A stretch of 64,000 nucleotides of DNA from Candidatus Aegiribacteria sp. MLS_C (GTDB taxonomy: Bacteria > Fermentibacterota > Fermentibacteria > Fermentibacterales > JCC-6): positions 62,001 to 126,000 of the forward strand of contig LQBI01000035.1 of assembly GCA_002030045.1 (NCBI GenBank). The letters are read 5' to 3'. Below are positions 41,131-63,550 of this stretch, piece by piece. How positions within the stretch are numbered: position 1 is the first letter of the stretch; each line of letters opens with the position of its first letter. The notes below the pieces were generated by a model. The model was given only the letters and a program-made list of their open reading frames with translations, searched no databases and was not told the DNA's origin. The position numbers were made by a program, and so were the translations under genes.

Positions 41131-42780
41131 TCAGGGAGCGGCGTCGCGTTCACCGGTTCCCGTCAGGGCCCGGAGGAGCGTATCCATCTCCTTCATCGTA
41201 TAGGGTTTGGAAAGCACTCCGCTGAAGCCGCAGGAAAGATGATCGGCCATCACCGGGTCCGTGGAGTAGCCGCTGGATACCACGAGCACAGCATTCTCGT
41301 CCATCGCCAGGATCTTCCCGGCGGCATCCCTGCCTCCCATGCCCCCCGCCACCGTCAGGTCCAGGATGACCACGTCGTACCTGCTGCCGGAGGACATGGC
41401 CCTGGCGTACATGGATACCGCCTCCTGGCCGTTTGAAGCCAGATCCGCGATCTGCCCGAGGGCTTCCAGCATTCCTGCGGCCACGTTCCTCACGTAATCC
41501 TCGTCGTCCATGACAAGGACCCTGATCCCACCGGGCCGGGCCTGCTCCTCGATTGCCCCGGCGGTTTCCGCTTTATTCGGGAGACTGTCGGATACGGGAA
41601 GGAAGATGGAGAAAGTGGAGCCCTCGCCGGGAACCGAGAAAACCCTGGTGCGGCCTCCGTGTTTCTCAACGACGGAATGAACCACCGCCAGGCCAAGTCC
41701 GGTCCCCTGGGGCCTGGTGCTGAAAAAGGGTTCGAATATTCTGTCAAGATCCTCCGCCGGTATGCCGGTGCCGCTGTCCCGGAAGTCCATTCTCACGAAC
41801 CTTCCCTCCTTCAGTCCCTCGGCCGCCGCCTCTTCAGCAACGAGGTTCCTGGCCGCCACCTCGAGTTTACCTCCCTCGGGCATCGATTCCCTTGCATTGA
41901 TCACCAGGTTGGAGATCACCTCACCCAGCTGTCTGGCATCCCCCCTCAGGCACCACAGGTCCCCGGGGAGGTCGAACTCCGCCTTCACGCTGCATCCGGC
42001 CAGGTGGAAGGCCACCGTCTCACGGAGCAGTCCGCCGGTGTCAAGGCTTCGAACCACCGGTTCGCTCCCCCTGGCGAAGGTCAGCAGCTGGTGCGTCAGT
42101 GCCACGGCCCTGCTCATCGAGCCTTCCACAGCGTCAAGGTACCCCCTGGCCGGGCTGTCTTCCGGAAGAAGGGACGATACTATGGATATGTTACCGAAGA
42201 TACCGCTGAGAAGGTTGTTGAAATCATGGGCGATCCCGCCGGCCAGTGTCCCAAGGGATTCCAGCCTCCTGCTCCTCATCAGTTCGGCCTCGTAGAGTTT
42301 CCTCTGTGTGATGTCGGTGTAGACGCCGATCACGCCGAGAAGTACGCCATCCACGATAATGGGTGCGCCGGAGAGAAGAACGTCAACCGGAGTCCCGTCC
42401 CTCCGATACCTCACGGTTTCCACGGGAGGTATCCGTTCGCCCCGGAGTACTTTCTCGGTGTATGACCTCGCCTCCCTGACGGTGTCGTCCCTGGAGATGA
42501 GTTCGTCGACGTCATGACCGACCACCTCGTCCCTCGTGTATCCGAAGAGTTCGGCGGCACCACTGTTCCAGTCTAAAATCCTGTGATCGGCGTCCAGGGT
42601 CACGATGGCGTCAGGAGCTGACTCCAGAACCACTTCCAGGTACTCTCGCCTTCCGGCGCCGTCCAGTCCGGAAACCAGGAGCTTCTTCTCTCCACCCTCC
42701 CCGTGTGCCCGGCATTCACCGTGAATACAGAATGAACAAAGGGAACGCTGGACGCAATGGTACCGAAGCACGGAATGCAC
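41131..42780 (-). CDS. hybrid PAS histidine kinase with receiver domain
   Basis: A 549-aa cytoplasmic sensor kinase. N-terminal Cys-rich stretch (HCVQRSLCSFCIHGEC, about 8-23), PAS domain (about 45-160; APDAIVTLDADHRILDWN), HisKA box with phosphoacceptor His (GGIAHDFNNLLSGIFG), HATPase (NLVINARESMPEGG, DSGTGIPAEDLDRIFEPFFS, GTGLGLAVVHSVVEKHGG) and a C-terminal receiver (VLVMDDEDYVRN, phosphoacceptor Asp in VVILDLTVAGGMGG). No membrane segment, so it senses a cytoplasmic cue. It follows the cyclase gene by 14 nt in the same direction, so the two are probably co-expressed; the start is not fixed by a clear ribosome binding site. Confidence 0.92.
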   Translation of the reverse strand: MHSVLRYHCVQRSLCSFCIHGECRAHGEGGEKKLLVSGLDGAGRREYLEVVLESAPDAIVTLDADHRILDWNSGAAELFGYTRDEVVGHDVDELISRDDTVREARSYTEKVLRGERIPPVETVRYRRDGTPVDVLLSGAPIIVDGVLLGVIGVYTDITQRKLYEAELMRSRRLESLGTLAGGIAHDFNNLLSGIFGNISIVSSLLPEDSPARGYLDAVEGSMSRAVALTHQLLTFARGSEPVVRSLDTGGLLRETVAFHLAGCSVKAEFDLPGDLWCLRGDARQLGEVISNLVINARESMPEGGKLEVAARNLVAEEAAAEGLKEGRFVRMDFRDSGTGIPAEDLDRIFEPFFSTRPQGTGLGLAVVHSVVEKHGGRTRVFSVPGEGSTFSIFLPVSDSLPNKAETAGAIEEQARPGGIRVLVMDDEDYVRNVAAGMLEALGQIADLASNGQEAVSMYARAMSSGSRYDVVILDLTVAGGMGGRDAAGKILAMDENAVLVVSSGYSTDPVMADHLSCGFSGVLSKPYTMKEMDTLLRALTGTGERDAAP

Positions 42781-42794
42781 CGGTGAGCCCGGGT

Positions 42795-45700
42795 TCAGAG
42801 TATCTGAAGGACTGCGCTGCTCCTGCGGGCCGTGACACCGAGCTCGCGCTCGAGGGCATCCAGAGTTTCCCCGGCACCTGCGCCGTTCTCGGAACCTCTC
42901 AGAGAACAGAGGAAGTGAAGGGCATCGGCCAGCGCCGGTCTGAGACCCTTCTCACGAAATACATCTATCGCCGAACCTGTCTCCTCCACCGCCGCCTCGG
43001 TCTTCCCTTCCAGGTCGAGCATCCTTGAACGAAGTACATGGATCCTGCCGGCGCCCGACGCCATGCCCATCTCCTCCAGTAGTTCACCGGCCTCCTCCAC
43101 GATTCCTGCGGCTCCCTCCGCGTCACCGGTGACGGAACAAAGGTACATGCGCGCAGTAAGGGCGTTGAGCAGCTGGCTCCTGGACTGGACTCTCCTGCAG
43201 AGTTCCTCGCCTCTCCCGAAGAGTTCGCCGGCACCGGCGGGGTCATCCATTTCCATGCGCAGCATACCCTTGAGGATGAACGCGCTGGCCCTCTCGCGCT
43301 CGTAGGCTTCCGCGCCGGGCATATCCAGTATGCTGTCAGCATGGATCCCGGCCTGCAGCATGTTGCCGAATGCAAGCTGAAGAATGCCCATCTGGCAGTG
43401 GGCCAGGAGGATATCCTGCATGGCCGGCAGCTCCATCGCAAGTCTCAGGTAGGTGCAGGCGGCGTCCATGGACCCGCCGAGGTCTCCGAGGGTACCGCAG
43501 GCTGAGGAGATGGAGCCGTAGGAGGAGAGCAGGATGAGCTTCTCCCCGATCTGTTCTGAGAGGGACTTCTGCATTTCGAAGGCGGCCACTGCCGCGTGCA
43601 GGTCATCCAGTTTCTGCGAGACCAGCCCTATGTTGCCGGAAGTGACGGCCATCTCCCTCTTCATGTCTTGTTCCCTGGCGATCGCCAGTGCCCTCTGGTA
43701 GTACTCCCTGGCCCTTTCGTAGTCGCCGTTGCCCCAGTGGACCGTGGCCAGTGTGTTATAGGCGAAACCCCTGCGATGGTCCTTCTCCCTGTCCGGCACA
43801 CCCTTCAGGCCTTCGGCCAGCTCCAGCGCTTTCAGGGCCTTTTCCATGGCCGGACCTGTCCTGCCCGTCACGCAGTAGGCCCAGGACCTGAAGCATTCGA
43901 TGCGGACCATCAGGAGGTCGTGGTTCTCTCCGGAGGCTTCCAGCATGGATTCTATGTCATCAAGTTCCGCCAGGGACTCCTCGACCCTGCCTGTCGTGTA
44001 TGCTATGTCCGCCCTTAGAAGCCTGACCTCGGCCAGGAATCCGGCGTCCCGTGGGGAGGTGCCCCGGACCGCGGCGGAAAGGGATGCGCCGTAGTAATCA
44101 CCGGCCTCGTCGTACCTTCCCAGCCTGTCATATATCCTTCCCAGCTCCAGCAGTGACTCGGCCAGCTGGTCCGGCGTCTCTTCGGGGTGTGACTTCATCA
44201 TCTCCAACGCCGAGGTGTAATGACCTATCGCGTCATGGTTCCTGTAGTCCGAGCAGGCTTTGCTGCCGGCGAGAATGGAGTATCTGACGGCGCTGTCCCA
44301 TGACTCCGCGACCCTGAAGTGATGGGCAAGGAGAGGACTTACGGTCCCGAGATCGTCACGGTGGACTTCCTCCAGTATGGAGGCAATGCTGCCGTGGATA
44401 TCCCTTCTCCTCTTCCTGAGTATGGAGTCATAGGTCACGTCCTTTATCAGCGTGTGGGAGAAGACGAACTCCAGCGCCCTGAGATCCGACCTGCAGGTGA
44501 GGCCGGCCGCCAGGCACTGTCCCAGGCTGGAGCTGACATCCCTTCCCGCTACCCTCCTCACCGTCTCCTCGTCGAACCTCAGACCGATCACGCTGCCTAT
44601 CCTGAGGCTCTCCTTGGCCTGTTTCTCAAGCCTGTCGATCCTGGCCATTATCATCGTGAAGATGTTCTCCGGCAGTTTCTCGTCGCTGTACGCATCGGTG
44701 CGTGACCAGACTCCGTCCACGGGACTGATGAGACCCTCCTCCACCAGATAGAGCAGGAACTGCATGAGGTAGAAGGGATTCCCTCCGGCCCTGTTCCTGA
44801 TGACCTTGTCCAGTTCATCCTCGAGTGGCCTGGAGCCCAGTATCTCCATGGCGAGTCCGCCCAGGGCCCCGTCCTCGAGGGAACTCAGGAGGACCCTGTC
44901 GGGAATGTGGTCCCCCGTTCCGGGCAGCTCCCTTGCGTCGGGTCTTCTGGAGAGCAGAATGGAGATTCCGGTCCGTCTCCTCTCCAGGATCCTGCGGCAT
45001 ATGTAGCCCACCGCTTCCAGGTCCTCCTCGCCGCAGTTGTGCAGGTCCTCCAGTATGATGCATGAATGTCCGGAAAATGCCAGGACAAGATCGCACACAC
45101 CGTCCAGCAGGTTCTCCCTCCTGAGCGCCGGTGGAAGGCGGTGGTGGTCCGAATCGGGATAGTCCAGCGAGAAGAGCATGCTTCCTATGAAAGGTTCCCG
45201 GTGCGAAAGTGCACCGGAGGAATCCTCCAGTTCGTTCACCAGATAGCAGAGCCTGCTCTTTCTGACCGCCTGTGTGTCTCCGTCGGCCATGCCCGACATG
45301 TCCTCCACGAGTGATGCCAGGATGCCGTTGCTCAGACCCCGTTCACCCGCTGAAGCATGGTGGCACGTGATCCCTCTCGACGAGAGGATGCCGGACAGCC
45401 TGTCCAGGAACCTGGTCTTGCCGATCCCGGCTTCCCCCTCCACCAGCCCGAAGTAGCTGCCCGACCCCATGCCGGCGAGTATCCTCTCCGTTTCCGGTTC
45501 CCGGCCCACGAAACCGTAGCTGTATACCCTGTCACTCCTTCTGGATACTGGAGTGTGGACCTGCTGGGGCCTGTCCCGGCCCCTTATCTCGACGGTTCCC
45601 ATCCCGCTGAATACGAAATCGTTCCTGGTCATCCTTCGGACCCGGTCGGACACCAGCAGTTCGCCAGTCGCGGCCAGGTCGGCGATACCGGCCGCCGAGT

Positions 45701-46724
45701 TGACTACCTCGCCTATCACCGTGTAGTGCTTCCTGCGGGAGCTTCCGATGACTCCGGCGAACGCGTATCCCTCGTCCATTCCGATGTGGATGTCCAGGTC
45801 CGGGCTTCCGGAGGTCCTGTCCCTCATTTCAATGGCCGAGGCTACCGCGTGTACGTGGTCGTCTCCGTGTGATACCGGGGCTCCGAAGAGAACGAGTATC
45901 CTGCAGCCTCCAGGGAGCATGTTGTCGATCGAGTGCACGGTCCCGGAGTACTTTGCCGCTGCGTCGGCTATCCTTCCGTAGACCTCCCGCAGCCTCGCCA
46001 CCGGAGGCCTGGCCGGATCGTAGCCGGTAACGTTCACGAATATTGCTGACACGGACCTGTGTTCGCCCGGTGTCCCACCCTCGCCGTGTATCAGGAACGC
46101 TTCGTCGAGTATGCCCTCGAGGGGAGAAGGAGGTATTCCGGGCTCCATATCCGATACCACCGAGACCAGGTCCCCCTCCGATGCAGATGATTCCGCATGG
46201 GCCATCCTGGCAACCAGGTCCCCCGCGAGGTAGAGGTGCGCTCCGCGGGCATCCCCCATGATGAACCTGCCCCATGGGCCGTATCCGAGAACGGTCTTTA
46301 TTCCCAGCCGGAACGGGCCGGCGCTCGTCTTCAGCCCGCGGAAGCCCTGCATCGCCTCCATAATCTCCGCCGCACACCGGTCGGGACCGGGACCCTCGGG
46401 GAATGAAGCCAGCATGGAGTCACCGGCGGATGACAGCACTGAACCTCCGTATTCCCAGACTATGCCGTGCATCGCGCTGAAGAACGAGTTGAGTATGTCC
46501 GAGAGTTCCTCGGTGCCCTTCTTGCCGTGGCGGGCCAGTCTTCCCGTCAGTCCGGTGAAGCCGGAGATGTCCGTCAGAAGAAGAGCGCCCCTGAAAATGC
46601 AGGTACCCTCCCTGATGGTCTTCAGGTCAGGCGGGAGGAAGAAGTTCAAATGCCGGTACCTCCTGTTCTGGAGCATTGAATACCAGAAGCCGTGATGAAA
46701 ACTCGTCAAGTCGAACCCGCCCAC
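42795..46724 (-). CDS. tandem class III cyclase with NTPase and TPR array, soluble-adenylyl-cyclase-like
   Basis: A 1309-aa soluble protein; start GTG at 46724. First cyclase domain (about 40-190): LLLTDISGFTGLTGRL and SSAGDSMLASFPEG supply two metal-binding Asp. Second domain (about 215-390): AIFVNVTGYD, GGCRILVLFGAPVSHGDDH, and HYTVIGEVVNSAAGIADLA, where the first metal Asp is Asn and the catalytic Arg four residues after the Asn is Gly. An AAA/STAND NTPase follows (FVGREPETERIL; P-loop EGEAGIGKTRFLDRL), then TPR-type helices (about 780-1290). This is the order of eukaryotic soluble adenylyl cyclase (ADCY10). It may make cAMP or be a pseudo-enzyme. Followed by the kinase gene. Confidence 0.9.
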   Translation of the reverse strand: MGGFDLTSFHHGFWYSMLQNRRYRHLNFFLPPDLKTIREGTCIFRGALLLTDISGFTGLTGRLARHGKKGTEELSDILNSFFSAMHGIVWEYGGSVLSSAGDSMLASFPEGPGPDRCAAEIMEAMQGFRGLKTSAGPFRLGIKTVLGYGPWGRFIMGDARGAHLYLAGDLVARMAHAESSASEGDLVSVVSDMEPGIPPSPLEGILDEAFLIHGEGGTPGEHRSVSAIFVNVTGYDPARPPVARLREVYGRIADAAAKYSGTVHSIDNMLPGGCRILVLFGAPVSHGDDHVHAVASAIEMRDRTSGSPDLDIHIGMDEGYAFAGVIGSSRRKHYTVIGEVVNSAAGIADLAATGELLVSDRVRRMTRNDFVFSGMGTVEIRGRDRPQQVHTPVSRRSDRVYSYGFVGREPETERILAGMGSGSYFGLVEGEAGIGKTRFLDRLSGILSSRGITCHHASAGERGLSNGILASLVEDMSGMADGDTQAVRKSRLCYLVNELEDSSGALSHREPFIGSMLFSLDYPDSDHHRLPPALRRENLLDGVCDLVLAFSGHSCIILEDLHNCGEEDLEAVGYICRRILERRRTGISILLSRRPDARELPGTGDHIPDRVLLSSLEDGALGGLAMEILGSRPLEDELDKVIRNRAGGNPFYLMQFLLYLVEEGLISPVDGVWSRTDAYSDEKLPENIFTMIMARIDRLEKQAKESLRIGSVIGLRFDEETVRRVAGRDVSSSLGQCLAAGLTCRSDLRALEFVFSHTLIKDVTYDSILRKRRRDIHGSIASILEEVHRDDLGTVSPLLAHHFRVAESWDSAVRYSILAGSKACSDYRNHDAIGHYTSALEMMKSHPEETPDQLAESLLELGRIYDRLGRYDEAGDYYGASLSAAVRGTSPRDAGFLAEVRLLRADIAYTTGRVEESLAELDDIESMLEASGENHDLLMVRIECFRSWAYCVTGRTGPAMEKALKALELAEGLKGVPDREKDHRRGFAYNTLATVHWGNGDYERAREYYQRALAIAREQDMKREMAVTSGNIGLVSQKLDDLHAAVAAFEMQKSLSEQIGEKLILLSSYGSISSACGTLGDLGGSMDAACTYLRLAMELPAMQDILLAHCQMGILQLAFGNMLQAGIHADSILDMPGAEAYERERASAFILKGMLRMEMDDPAGAGELFGRGEELCRRVQSRSQLLNALTARMYLCSVTGDAEGAAGIVEEAGELLEEMGMASGAGRIHVLRSRMLDLEGKTEAAVEETGSAIDVFREKGLRPALADALHFLCSLRGSENGAGAGETLDALERELGVTARRSSAVLQIL

Positions 46725-52228: not shown

Positions 52229-53734
52229 ATGAACACGCAGATGGTCCTGCACGGTGTCCAGGCAGTCGTACTCGGGCTTTCCGTCGGACTCATACTCCTT
52301 TTCATAAGGAGGCACGCACCGGGGAGCAGGCTCAGACTGTGGGTCTTCCTGGCCGGCATAGCCGGGGCCGCTTACCTGGTTTTGAAGATGTTCGGTGTCC
52401 CGGGGGACAACACCTTCTCCAAGATATCCCTGGCCTTCACGGTATTCCTGTCCGCAAACATCGTGCTGAAAATGCTGAACCTTCTCTTCTGGGACTACCT
52501 CCTGAAGAAGCAGGTGGAGGTCTACATTCCACGCCTGGTCATAGACATCATTAACGGAATCGTCCTCGCCATAGTCGCCCTGGCAGTGCTCAACGGAGTG
52601 TTCGGTGTGAAACTCTCCGGACTGCTGGTCACCTCCACGGTCCTGTCCGCAGTGATAGGTCTCTCGCTGCAGGACATACTGGGCAACCTCTTCGCGGGCC
52701 TGGCCCTGCAGATGGAGAGGCCCTACAAGCTGGGTGAATGGATTAGCGTCGGGGATCATGAGGGAATCGTCATACAGATGAACTGGAGGACCCTGACCAT
52801 CAGGACAAGGGAGGGCGACAACGTCACCATCCCGAACGCCACTGTCTCGAAGGACATAGTGACCAACCATTCCCGGCCCGACAGGAACCACATGTGCAGG
52901 GTGGAGGTGGGCATCTCCTACGACAGCAGGCCTGACAGGGTCAAGAGCGTCATCGCATCGACCCTGGAGAGGATGGACGGAGTGCTCGGCCACCCTCCTC
53001 CAAAGGTTTTCCTGAAGCAGTTCGGCGACTTCTCCATACTCTACGAGGCCAGGTTCTGGACCGGCGAGTACCACAGGAAACCGGAACTCGAGAATACTGT
53101 CAGGACAAGGATATGGTACGTGCTCAGGAGGCACGGCATGTCCATACCCTTCCCCATAAGGGACGTCACCGTGAGGGAGGTATCCCGCGAGGAGGAGGAC
53201 CTCGTCAGGGAGAACCTGAGGATGGAGGTGGTCCTCGGTCTCAGGAGCGTGGAGCTTTTCAGGCCTCTGTCCGACGTCCAGATGGAGGAGCTTGCGCGGA
53301 ATTCATCCAGGCTTGTCTATTCCCCGGGCGAGACCCTGGTGAGGCAGGGCGACTCCGGTGATTCACTGTTCATCATAACATCCGGCAGGGTGGAGATATA
53401 CGTTTCCGATGGCTCCGGCAGGAATACCCATCTTGCCGACCTCGCCGCCGGGGACTACTTCGGAGAGATGAGCCTCCTGACCGGGGAACCCAGGACGGCT
53501 TCCGTCATAGCAGCTGTCGAGACGGAGGTCATAATGGTAAGGAAGGCGGGCATCAGTTCCATCCTTGAACAGGAGGCCTCGGTGCTGGAGCCCCTTTCGG
53601 CAATGCTGGACAGGAGGCTGCAGGAACTCTCGGGCAGGATCGTCGACCAGAAGGCCAGGGAGGATAAGGGTCGCCAGCCGGACCGCAAGGAGCACCTGCT
53701 GGGCAGGATCAGGGATTTCTTCGGCATCGGCTGA
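52229..53734 (+). CDS. MscS-family channel with cyclic-nucleotide-binding domain
   Basis: A 501-aa protein. About four N-terminal helices lead to the MscS pore segment (GLLVTSTVLSAVIGLSLQ, then LGNLFAGLALQMERPYKLGEW split) and the MscS beta-domain (GIVIQMNWRTLTIRT, VTIPNATVSKDIVTN). A cyclic-nucleotide-binding domain follows (about 350-460): PGETLVRQGDSGDSLFII and the phosphate cassette FGEMSLLTGEPRTASV with its conserved Glu and Arg. Such channels (bCNG type) may be gated by cAMP or cGMP. The putative cyclase in this window (42795-46724) would be a possible source, by inference only. Confidence 0.93.
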   Translation: MNTQMVLHGVQAVVLGLSVGLILLFIRRHAPGSRLRLWVFLAGIAGAAYLVLKMFGVPGDNTFSKISLAFTVFLSANIVLKMLNLLFWDYLLKKQVEVYIPRLVIDIINGIVLAIVALAVLNGVFGVKLSGLLVTSTVLSAVIGLSLQDILGNLFAGLALQMERPYKLGEWISVGDHEGIVIQMNWRTLTIRTREGDNVTIPNATVSKDIVTNHSRPDRNHMCRVEVGISYDSRPDRVKSVIASTLERMDGVLGHPPPKVFLKQFGDFSILYEARFWTGEYHRKPELENTVRTRIWYVLRRHGMSIPFPIRDVTVREVSREEEDLVRENLRMEVVLGLRSVELFRPLSDVQMEELARNSSRLVYSPGETLVRQGDSGDSLFIITSGRVEIYVSDGSGRNTHLADLAAGDYFGEMSLLTGEPRTASVIAAVETEVIMVRKAGISSILEQEASVLEPLSAMLDRRLQELSGRIVDQKAREDKGRQPDRKEHLLGRIRDFFGIG

Positions 53735-60766: not shown

Positions 60767-63550
60767 ATGATATACCTACTGCTTACGGCGCTGGTCTGCG
60801 AAGCCGGGTTCCCGGGGCCCGAGAGCCGGGCCGACTACCGGATGGAAGCCAGGCTTGTCCCCGATTCCCAGATGGTCATCTGTACCTCGACCATACTGTT
60901 CACAAGCGGGGTGGACTACCCTGTGGACACCCTCTGGCTCCATCTCTACCCGAATGCATACCGTGATCCCTCCACCCCCTTCGGCCGCGACATGGAAGCG
61001 GCGGGAAGCTACGGCTTCAGAGCATCGGGCGCTGAGGAGAGGGGCTGGCTGGACCTCTTCGAATGGGAGCTGGACGGGGATCCCGTCACCGTGGAAGTGG
61101 ACGACTGCCTGGGGTACATCGCACTGCGGAGGCCGCTTCCCCCGGGCGGCACCCTGACACTGAGCGGGGGGTTCGCTCTGAAGGTCCCGTTTTTCTGGAG
61201 CAGGCTGGGTCACTCGGGGGACACCTATCAGATAACCCAGTGGTACCCCAAGATGTGCGTCCTGGATCCCCGGGGATGGCATTCGGGCCGGTACCGCCGG
61301 CGAGGGGAGTTCTACAGCGATTTTGGTGATTACAGGGTGGAGATAACGGTACCCCGTGAATTCATCACCGCAGCCACCGGAAGGGTTGCGGGAACGGTCT
61401 TCTCCGAGGATTCGACCCTTCGTACGGATACCTGGCTGGCCCGGGATGTCCACGATTTCGTGTGGTCAGCAAGCCCCGACTACCACGTAAGGGAACACAC
61501 CTTCCATTACCCCGAGGATCTCGGCGGGGACGGCATATCGGTTCATCTCGTCCTGCTGGACGACGATCCCGGCCACTGGGAGGATGTACCCGCGGTCATT
61601 GACTCGACCCTGCTCTACTACGGCCAGTGGTACTGTCCCTACCCCTACCCGGACCTCTGGGTGGTGGAGCCCGCACAGCTGACGGCAGGGGGCATGGAGT
61701 ACCCGCAGTTCGTCTTCTCGGCCGCTGAGATACCGCTCACCAGGGCCCTGGAGATGGTCACGGCCCACGAGATCGGGCACCAGTGGTTCTACGGCATCCT
61801 GGCCAACGACGAGGTGAACGAGGCCTGGCTGGACGAGGGCATGAACACCTTCAGCGAACTCCGCTACATGGAGCGCAGGCACGGATTCCACGGGAACATG
61901 ACCACAACGCCGGACTGGCTGCTCAGCGTAAGCGACCGGGAGCTTACGCTAACCGGATACGTCTCGGGGACCGCCGGCTTCGAGAAGATGCCGGTCCTCA
62001 GCGATGCCACCTCGGCAGGGGACGGGAGCCATCCAACCGGATTCACCTACTACTCCAAACCCGCACTCTTCGTCAGCATGCTGAGGGACCAGGCAGGCGA
62101 GGATGAGTTCGACCACGCCATGGACCTCTACTTCAGGAGGTTCATGTTCCATCACCCGCATACTGATGATTTCATGGAGGTACTTGAGCAGGTTACCGGC
62201 GAGTCCTGGGACCGTGAGTTCGACTACTGGCTCAGGGGGACCGGTAACGCCGACCTGGTGCTGGCAGACCTCCGCTGCTCCGAAGAATCCACCACGGTTG
62301 TCCTGTCCGGCGACCTGCCCCACTCCCTCGATCCTGAGCTGCTCCTGGTGGACGGAGAGGACTCACTGCTCTCCAGAGTTCACATGGAACCCGGAGAGAC
62401 CGTATCCCTGACCGTCCCGGGAACATGGTCCCGGGCGGTGGCTGACCCGTTCTCCGAGTTTCCGGACCGCGCTCCATGGAACAACTCACTTCCACCGCTC
62501 TCACAGGTGCGCCCCCTTCTGCTGCCGGTACCCAGGCCCACCCACTACGGTCTCTGGCTCCTGCCCTTCCCCTCCTACGGTGCAGGTTCATGGCGGGGAG
62601 AACTGCTTCTCATGTCGACTCCTCTGCCTTCCTACATGGGCGGCCCGTACACCTTCACCGGCAGCGTATCCCTGCCCTTCAGCACGGGCAGCTGGTCCTC
62701 ATGGGGTTCCTACGTACATTTCCCCCTTTTCAGGGGCCGGCACAGGGAACTCTTCGGTTCGGTCGGCCTGGAAAGGGGTTACGGGATCGGAAAGGCTTTC
62801 ATCGGGGCCGAATACCGGTCAAGCGGCAGGGTGCCCTCGGACCCGTCTGTGGAGATCGGGCTTGGAATACGGCTCTTCAGCGTGGAGGACACCACCGTCT
62901 ACGGAGGGAGGAACCTGGAGGAGGGACGGGGGGTGGAGGCGGCCGCAGGTCTTCAAGTCTCGGACGAGGGCTACCGTTTCTCCTGGAAGGGAGATCTCGA
63001 ATTCCTCGGATCCCCTGGCTGGGAAGAGGGTCCCTACGGAACTGCGGAGGTCACCTTCGATCTGAGGACCAGGCTGTCCGGGGGCTGGTTCACAAGGAGC
63101 AGGCTGTACGCGGGAAGGGTTGCCGGGGATGCTCCCCGCCACGTTCTGCTGAGACCCGGGGGCGGTCTCTTCGCCGATGGCATTGTCGGAGCCTTCCTTC
63201 CGCCGGACGGGACACTTTCCCCGCAGGAGCACTACTACGTGAGGAGCGGTCCAGCGCTTCCGGGATACCGGGAGAGTCACGTCCGTGGAAGGGCTGCGTT
63301 GACCGCCGAACAGAGGCTGGACCTGCCCGCTGTCCCTCTGGAGGTCTACTGGGCAGGGGGCTGGCTGGCCGACGGTTTCGAAGGTTTCAGTGGAGACTCC
63401 TTCATGTCGGAGCTGGGGGTCGCACTGAGGCTCGCCATGATGGAGGTCCTGTTCCCGCTCTGGGTCTCCGACCCGGGCGAAGGAGAGGAAGACTGGAACT
63501 TCAGATGGAGGATAGGGCTTCATCCATCCGGGTTCCCCGATCTCTACTGA
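60767..63550 (+). CDS. M1 aminopeptidase fused to a putative outer-membrane barrel
   Basis: A 927-aa secreted zinc peptidase. ATG at 60767 has AAGGG upstream and begins a signal peptide (LLLTALVCEA); a GTG at 60749 is possible. N-terminal M1 beta domain, then the active site HEIGHQWFYGILAND with the third ligand in NEAWLDEGMNTFSE, and TAGGMEYPQFVF (GxMEN-type). After about residue 600 the sequence becomes strand-rich (YTFTGSVSLPFSTGSW, ELFGSVGLERGYGIGKAFIG) and ends with Omp85-type features (GYRESHVRGRAAL, VYWAGGWLADGF). That suggests a C-terminal barrel that anchors the peptidase at the surface. The fusion is unusual. Confidence 0.88.
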   Translation: MIYLLLTALVCEAGFPGPESRADYRMEARLVPDSQMVICTSTILFTSGVDYPVDTLWLHLYPNAYRDPSTPFGRDMEAAGSYGFRASGAEERGWLDLFEWELDGDPVTVEVDDCLGYIALRRPLPPGGTLTLSGGFALKVPFFWSRLGHSGDTYQITQWYPKMCVLDPRGWHSGRYRRRGEFYSDFGDYRVEITVPREFITAATGRVAGTVFSEDSTLRTDTWLARDVHDFVWSASPDYHVREHTFHYPEDLGGDGISVHLVLLDDDPGHWEDVPAVIDSTLLYYGQWYCPYPYPDLWVVEPAQLTAGGMEYPQFVFSAAEIPLTRALEMVTAHEIGHQWFYGILANDEVNEAWLDEGMNTFSELRYMERRHGFHGNMTTTPDWLLSVSDRELTLTGYVSGTAGFEKMPVLSDATSAGDGSHPTGFTYYSKPALFVSMLRDQAGEDEFDHAMDLYFRRFMFHHPHTDDFMEVLEQVTGESWDREFDYWLRGTGNADLVLADLRCSEESTTVVLSGDLPHSLDPELLLVDGEDSLLSRVHMEPGETVSLTVPGTWSRAVADPFSEFPDRAPWNNSLPPLSQVRPLLLPVPRPTHYGLWLLPFPSYGAGSWRGELLLMSTPLPSYMGGPYTFTGSVSLPFSTGSWSSWGSYVHFPLFRGRHRELFGSVGLERGYGIGKAFIGAEYRSSGRVPSDPSVEIGLGIRLFSVEDTTVYGGRNLEEGRGVEAAAGLQVSDEGYRFSWKGDLEFLGSPGWEEGPYGTAEVTFDLRTRLSGGWFTRSRLYAGRVAGDAPRHVLLRPGGGLFADGIVGAFLPPDGTLSPQEHYYVRSGPALPGYRESHVRGRAALTAEQRLDLPAVPLEVYWAGGWLADGFEGFSGDSFMSELGVALRLAMMEVLFPLWVSDPGEGEEDWNFRWRIGLHPSGFPDLY

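Follow-up and report, generated by a model that had tools for sequence, protein, structure and literature searches.

A bacterial STAND protein of the soluble adenylyl cyclase family with a probably crippled cyclase head

The 64,000-nucleotide window analysed here (contig LQBI01000035.1 of Candidatus Aegiribacteria sp. MLS_C, positions 62,001 to 126,000) carries on its minus strand a gene whose product is, with a probability of about 0.68, a STAND signalling protein of the soluble adenylyl cyclase (sAC) family, in which the cyclase head would be crippled (weak or inactive) and the mammalian-type bicarbonate switch absent. Judged from profile, tree and model comparisons, its likeness to human ADCY10 is homology domain by domain (C1 to C1, C2 to C2) and goes beyond a shared layout. 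The architecture itself is already known; the real anomaly of the protein is the rare loss of the catalytic arginine corresponding to human Arg416.

The open frame runs from 42795 to 46724 (minus strand; 1309 codons counted from GTG 46724, from which all residue numbers are given), and the likely coding sequence is the shorter 42795..46649 (minus strand), with a TTG start at 46649 and 1284 aa. This start is preferred because AGGAGG stands 8-9 nt ahead of the TTG, because the ortholog alignment begins at about residue 26 of the frame, at the TTG position, and because seven orthologs of the same genus whose motif can be read have TTG at the same place, as one distant ortholog has ATG. Two non-identical cyclase homology domains lie in one chain, C1 (residues 45-190; 46155..46592, minus strand) and C2 (residues 218-395; 45540..46073, minus strand), and are followed by a STAND-type AAA/NTPase region (residues 403-800, limits approximate and set by alignment; 44325..45518, minus strand) with an intact Walker A box, GEAGIGKT (residues 430-437; 45414..45437, minus strand), and by a TPR region (residues about 801-1300; 42825..44324, minus strand). 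An AAA_16-type P-loop domain succeeded by TPR/MalT-like repeats is the arrangement of a STAND NTPase, and paired cyclase domains ahead of an NTPase and helical repeats are the layout of sAC/ADCY10. Pfam detects the cyclase domain in C2 only and scores AAA_16 at 29.9 bits, just under the cut-off of 32.6; the same domain lies above the cut-off in the scanned orthologs (48-56 bits) and in the scanned paralogs, and the TPRs of the window protein are well above theirs. The original prediction of an ADCY10-like order of two cyclase domains, NTPase and TPR region is borne out by these domain scans, by PDB matches and by a structural model.

In a phmmer search of the PDB, human ADCY10 was the best match for both C1 (residues 43-187) and C2 (residues 217-346), at E about 3e-19. 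Profiles built from the bacterial domains separate the two halves of the human protein, represented throughout by one sequence (residues 38-192 and 284-432): the C1 profile gives 98.9 bits to human C1, 64.6 to the next protein and 16.6 to human C2, and the C2 profile gives 93.8 bits to human C2, 86.3 to the next protein and 9.4 to human C1. Furthermore, the AF2 model of the C1-C2 pair (pLDDT 93.4, pTM 0.92) has human sAC as all of its top 24 PDB matches, ahead of AC9. What the window protein shares with the human core (4CLF and relatives) comprises the tandem C1-C2 chain, the metal site in C1, the Thr/Asn pair in C2 and the Asn at human N298; a predicted STAND P-loop has also been described downstream in full-length human sAC (PMC12802110). 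The differences are that the window protein is bacterial, has clear TPRs, measures 1284 aa against 187 kDa, and does not keep human Lys334, Arg416, Lys95, Arg176 or the C2 DKG loop.

Residue roles were taken from PMC12867704 (Table 1) and PMC12250328. Both metal-binding aspartates expected of an sAC-like C1 are present as D52 and D102 (human D47 and D99), as the original prediction held, and the Lys at human K144 together with T335 and N342 (human T405 and N412) is likewise retained. Within C2, the Asn412-Arg416 pair that marks catalytic competence is broken, N342 being kept and the arginine replaced by Gly346 (codon GGT, 45687..45689, minus strand), and so is the Lys334-Thr405 pair of base recognition, in which the threonine is kept and the lysine is S265. 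Arg416 contacts the alpha-phosphate in sAC (PMC12867704), and no compensating Arg or Lys is seen next to the altered site. The C2 blocks HYTVIGEVVN and GGCRILVLFG and the glycine in place of the catalytic arginine had been noted correctly from the sequence, and the doubt then raised about the activity of an altered composite site is supported by the Arg-to-Gly change at 416. The C2 asparagine found where an aspartate was expected does exist (N231); reading it as damage does not hold, as human sAC has the same Asn (N298) and the position lies outside the composite site. The residues listed at that stage were correct, and three further changes were not on the list: Lys334 to Ser, Lys95 to Ser and Arg176 to Ala.

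The rarity of these changes was gauged by a census of 96 loci read closely and picked for strong matches rather than at random, 94 of them tandem (93 distinct, L091 and L200 being one record); the rows are mutually related, so that the figures count sequences and not independent events. The metal aspartates are invariant where readable (D47 in 93/93, D99 in 94/94), metals being supplied by C1 in all family members, and of the 94 rows 90 have N412 and 91 have R416. R416 is missing from only three of these proteins. Two are the window protein and L045, which is its nearest relative; the third, a separate case, is L051 (AGG to GGG). Lys or Arg occupies position 334 in 36 of the 94 rows, none of them in the ortholog group of the window protein. 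Four tandem proteins of other lineages (L201, L202, L262 and L269) keep Arg416 and have Ile or Thr at Asn412, the site being altered there in another way. In the window genome itself, a single-domain cyclase-STAND-TPR protein (L037:3807-6962, plus strand) has its second metal Asp replaced (SEGARL for the usual xGDxx) and possibly an inactive head.

Despite these losses, the head does not appear to be eroding. Among close orthologs dN/dS is low, and lowest in C1 and C2 (about 0.05-0.15), which indicates that C2 is under purifying selection and is being kept rather than decaying. In the comparison of the window protein with L045, both without Arg416, dN/dS is 0.24 for C2 and 0.28 for C1, so that C2 is not relaxed, although this is weak evidence because dS is near saturation. 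The loss of two reaction-site residues and of the bicarbonate switch points to a cyclase that is probably weak or inactive and has been retained for signalling, and the conservation of C2 favours a regulatory or weakly active head over a dead relic. In such a protein the TPRs would, purely by analogy, sense a ligand or partner protein, and the STAND NTPase would, again by analogy only, switch oligomeric state with ATP; the change in assembly would normally drive the C1-C2 head. In the Arg-less sub-lineage this head would be a weak or inactive pseudo-cyclase, perhaps still able to bind ATP and metal, and may be retained as a regulatory or assembly module. The cyclic nucleotide would come from paralogs of the same genome in which the catalytic Arg is kept; L033, for one, has both Lys334 and Arg416.

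A more specific version of this reading is possible and is offered tentatively: a STAND protein of the sAC lineage whose conserved pseudo-cyclase head would serve as an ATP/metal switch, within the clade nearest to animal sAC, the bicarbonate switch being a late eukaryotic addition. Somewhat less probable, and on balance unlikely, is a nucleotidyl cyclase that still functions, with a low turnover or a changed preference for the base; the metals, the Asn, the Thr and the pyrophosphate-binding Lys would suffice for it, and STAND assembly would raise its activity. Class III cyclase mutants without this arginine have lowered rather than abolished activity, so low but useful activity is conceivable. 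The intact equivalents of D47, D99, K144, T405 and N412 and the purifying selection on both domains are consistent with such an enzyme, as is the equal conservation of Arg-retaining orthologs that already do without Lys334; against it stand the loss of an arginine so widely kept among the relatives and the exchange of Lys334 for Ser with no Arg or Lys seen nearby to compensate. A crippled head kept for signalling is preferred.

Cyclic nucleotides themselves probably have a place in this organism. The window genome has seven cNMP-binding domains, so that cyclic nucleotide signalling probably exists in it, and its cNMP-binding proteins suggest that these nucleotides are used. Among those proteins is an MscS-type mechanosensitive channel (52229-53734, plus strand), encoded some 5.5 kb away from the cyclase gene and bearing a cyclic-nucleotide-binding domain at its C-terminus; it is likely a cyclic nucleotide effector.

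Directly downstream of the cyclase gene lies a gene for a PAS-histidine kinase-receiver protein (41131..42780, minus strand), and the original prediction had joined the two as a pair. That they are adjacent here is correct, on the same strand and, by the longest frames, 14 nt apart; that the kinase forms part of the system is not supported, the kinase being absent from every ortholog locus examined. In Aegiribacteria, the cyclase gene of the ortholog loci likewise lies between CobA and PEPCK, with no kinase beside it, and no histidine kinase ORF occurs in the flanks of any ortholog locus examined, that of the closest genome included. The orthologs are followed by a metallophosphoesterase-like gene or by glutamine synthetase (both named by sequence inspection), the latter in the closest genome. 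As the kinase is absent at all these loci, the pairing appears local to the window genome and outside the system; a conserved pair is rejected by synteny, and it is very improbable that the window protein works together with this kinase.

Regulation by bicarbonate and calcium, as in mammalian sAC, is if anything more improbable still. The window protein has S98 for Lys95 and A175 for Arg176; human sAC all but loses its bicarbonate response when these residues are neutralised, and bicarbonate does not regulate the sACs of sea urchin and salmon, which lack one of them (PMC12867704). An ADCY10-type response is thus not supported by the residues of the window protein. The shared lineage and fold speak for such regulation, and a review holding bicarbonate activation to be ancient, on the strength of a bicarbonate-activated Chloroflexus cyclase (PMC11006738), leaves room for bacterial relatives to respond via other residues. 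Across the census, Arg176 occurs in only one of the 94 bacterial tandem relatives and never together with Lys95, which suggests that the ancestor did not have the Lys95/Arg176 site as such, other routes of bicarbonate response being possible.

The tree of 97 domains (31 C1 and 31 C2, human included, and 35 single-domain cyclases; eukaryotes represented by a single sequence with a long branch) unites all C1s in one clade (100/99) and all C2s in another (100/97), with the 35 single-domain cyclases outside. Forcing C1 and C2 of the window protein into one clade costs 137 log units and is rejected (p-AU 6e-6); doing the same for the human pair costs 47.8 (p-AU 0.041), which also disfavours an independent C1/C2 duplication in eukaryotes. 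That the bacterial C1 and C2 come from a class III domain of the ordinary kind, duplicated independently and only converging on the sAC layout, is the least probable explanation of all, for the human domains sit inside the separate bacterial C1 and C2 clades and resist being joined, even if single-cyclase CHD-STAND-TPR proteins in the same genome imply that such fusions arise often and the tree has its single eukaryotic sequence on a long branch. A place for C1 and C2 among ordinary bacterial cyclases, the result named beforehand as counting against the original prediction, emerged from neither the profiles nor the tree nor the model. In the concatenated C1+C2 tree, human sAC stands beside the ortholog group of the window protein (86/85, not firm); C1 alone groups it with that group (100/91) and C2 alone with L191 (83/85). 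The three tandem paralogs of the window genome (L033, L034 and L035) belong to another clade of the concatenated tree than the window's group.

Several other cyclase families invite comparison. The single-domain STAND-TPR cyclases of the same genome (L036, L037, L039 and L040) have the same cyclase-AAA_16-TPR order, but their one cyclase domain falls outside the C1 and C2 clades and would, if active, be expected to form homodimers. The TOMM kinase/cyclase fusion (TIGR03903) is the best NCBIfam match, via cyclase, NTPase and TPR; the assignment is rejected, as the match scores 165 bits against a cut-off of 705.75 and covers profile positions 319-1130 only, and the window protein has no kinase domain. 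PADLOC matches to Pycsar cyclases are weak, reflect general cyclase similarity and were set aside. On contig C11 of the same genome, a further gene (L038:3563-7243, minus strand) encodes a fusion of TIR domain, STAND NTPase and TPRs; a degenerate segment resembling a cyclase lies in between.

A bacterial protein of this layout is not exceptional. Going by the title of Kobayashi et al. (2004) and the account in a review, an sAC-like layout was already reported in bacteria by then, and the window genome alone (Fermentibacterota; 2.98 Mb, 97.6% complete) encodes four tandem-cyclase proteins, the window protein and its three paralogs (25-27% identity), besides several with a single cyclase domain. 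The 99 relatives searched yielded about 17 near full-length orthologs (59 to 30% identity), and orthologs are known from about 18 genomes. The named ones are MAGs of Candidatus Fermentibacteria, Aegiribacteria and Sabulitectum, apart from two outliers, a WOR-3 MAG and 'Desulfuromonas sp. SDB'; a scan of IMG/VR returned no viral relatives. Outside the order, C1-type domains are found in long ORFs of many lineages, and plasmid lbp2 of Leptospira borgpetersenii encodes a tandem C1 + C2 protein of 1397 aa (L241:3959-8152; WP_002741124). The Leptospira protein, whose annotation says no more than 'adenylate/guanylate cyclase domain-containing protein', has the Asp/Asp/Thr/Asn/Arg set intact. Three genomes (G281, G282 and G353) show an expansion, with nine or more C1-type matches each, most in ORFs of 1200-1500 aa. 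The 94 bacterial tandem cyclases share with the window protein the domain order and the division of labour between C1 and C2, but nearly all keep Arg416, and many keep Lys/Arg at 334 and the DKG loop.

Altogether, these comparisons set ADCY10 within a wide bacterial family whose C1 and C2 had already taken on different tasks. The census also makes a debated point testable, namely whether bicarbonate control via Lys95/Arg176 is an old trait or one acquired later, and the lineage in which Arg has become Gly offers a natural experiment on an sAC head deprived of its catalytic arginine.
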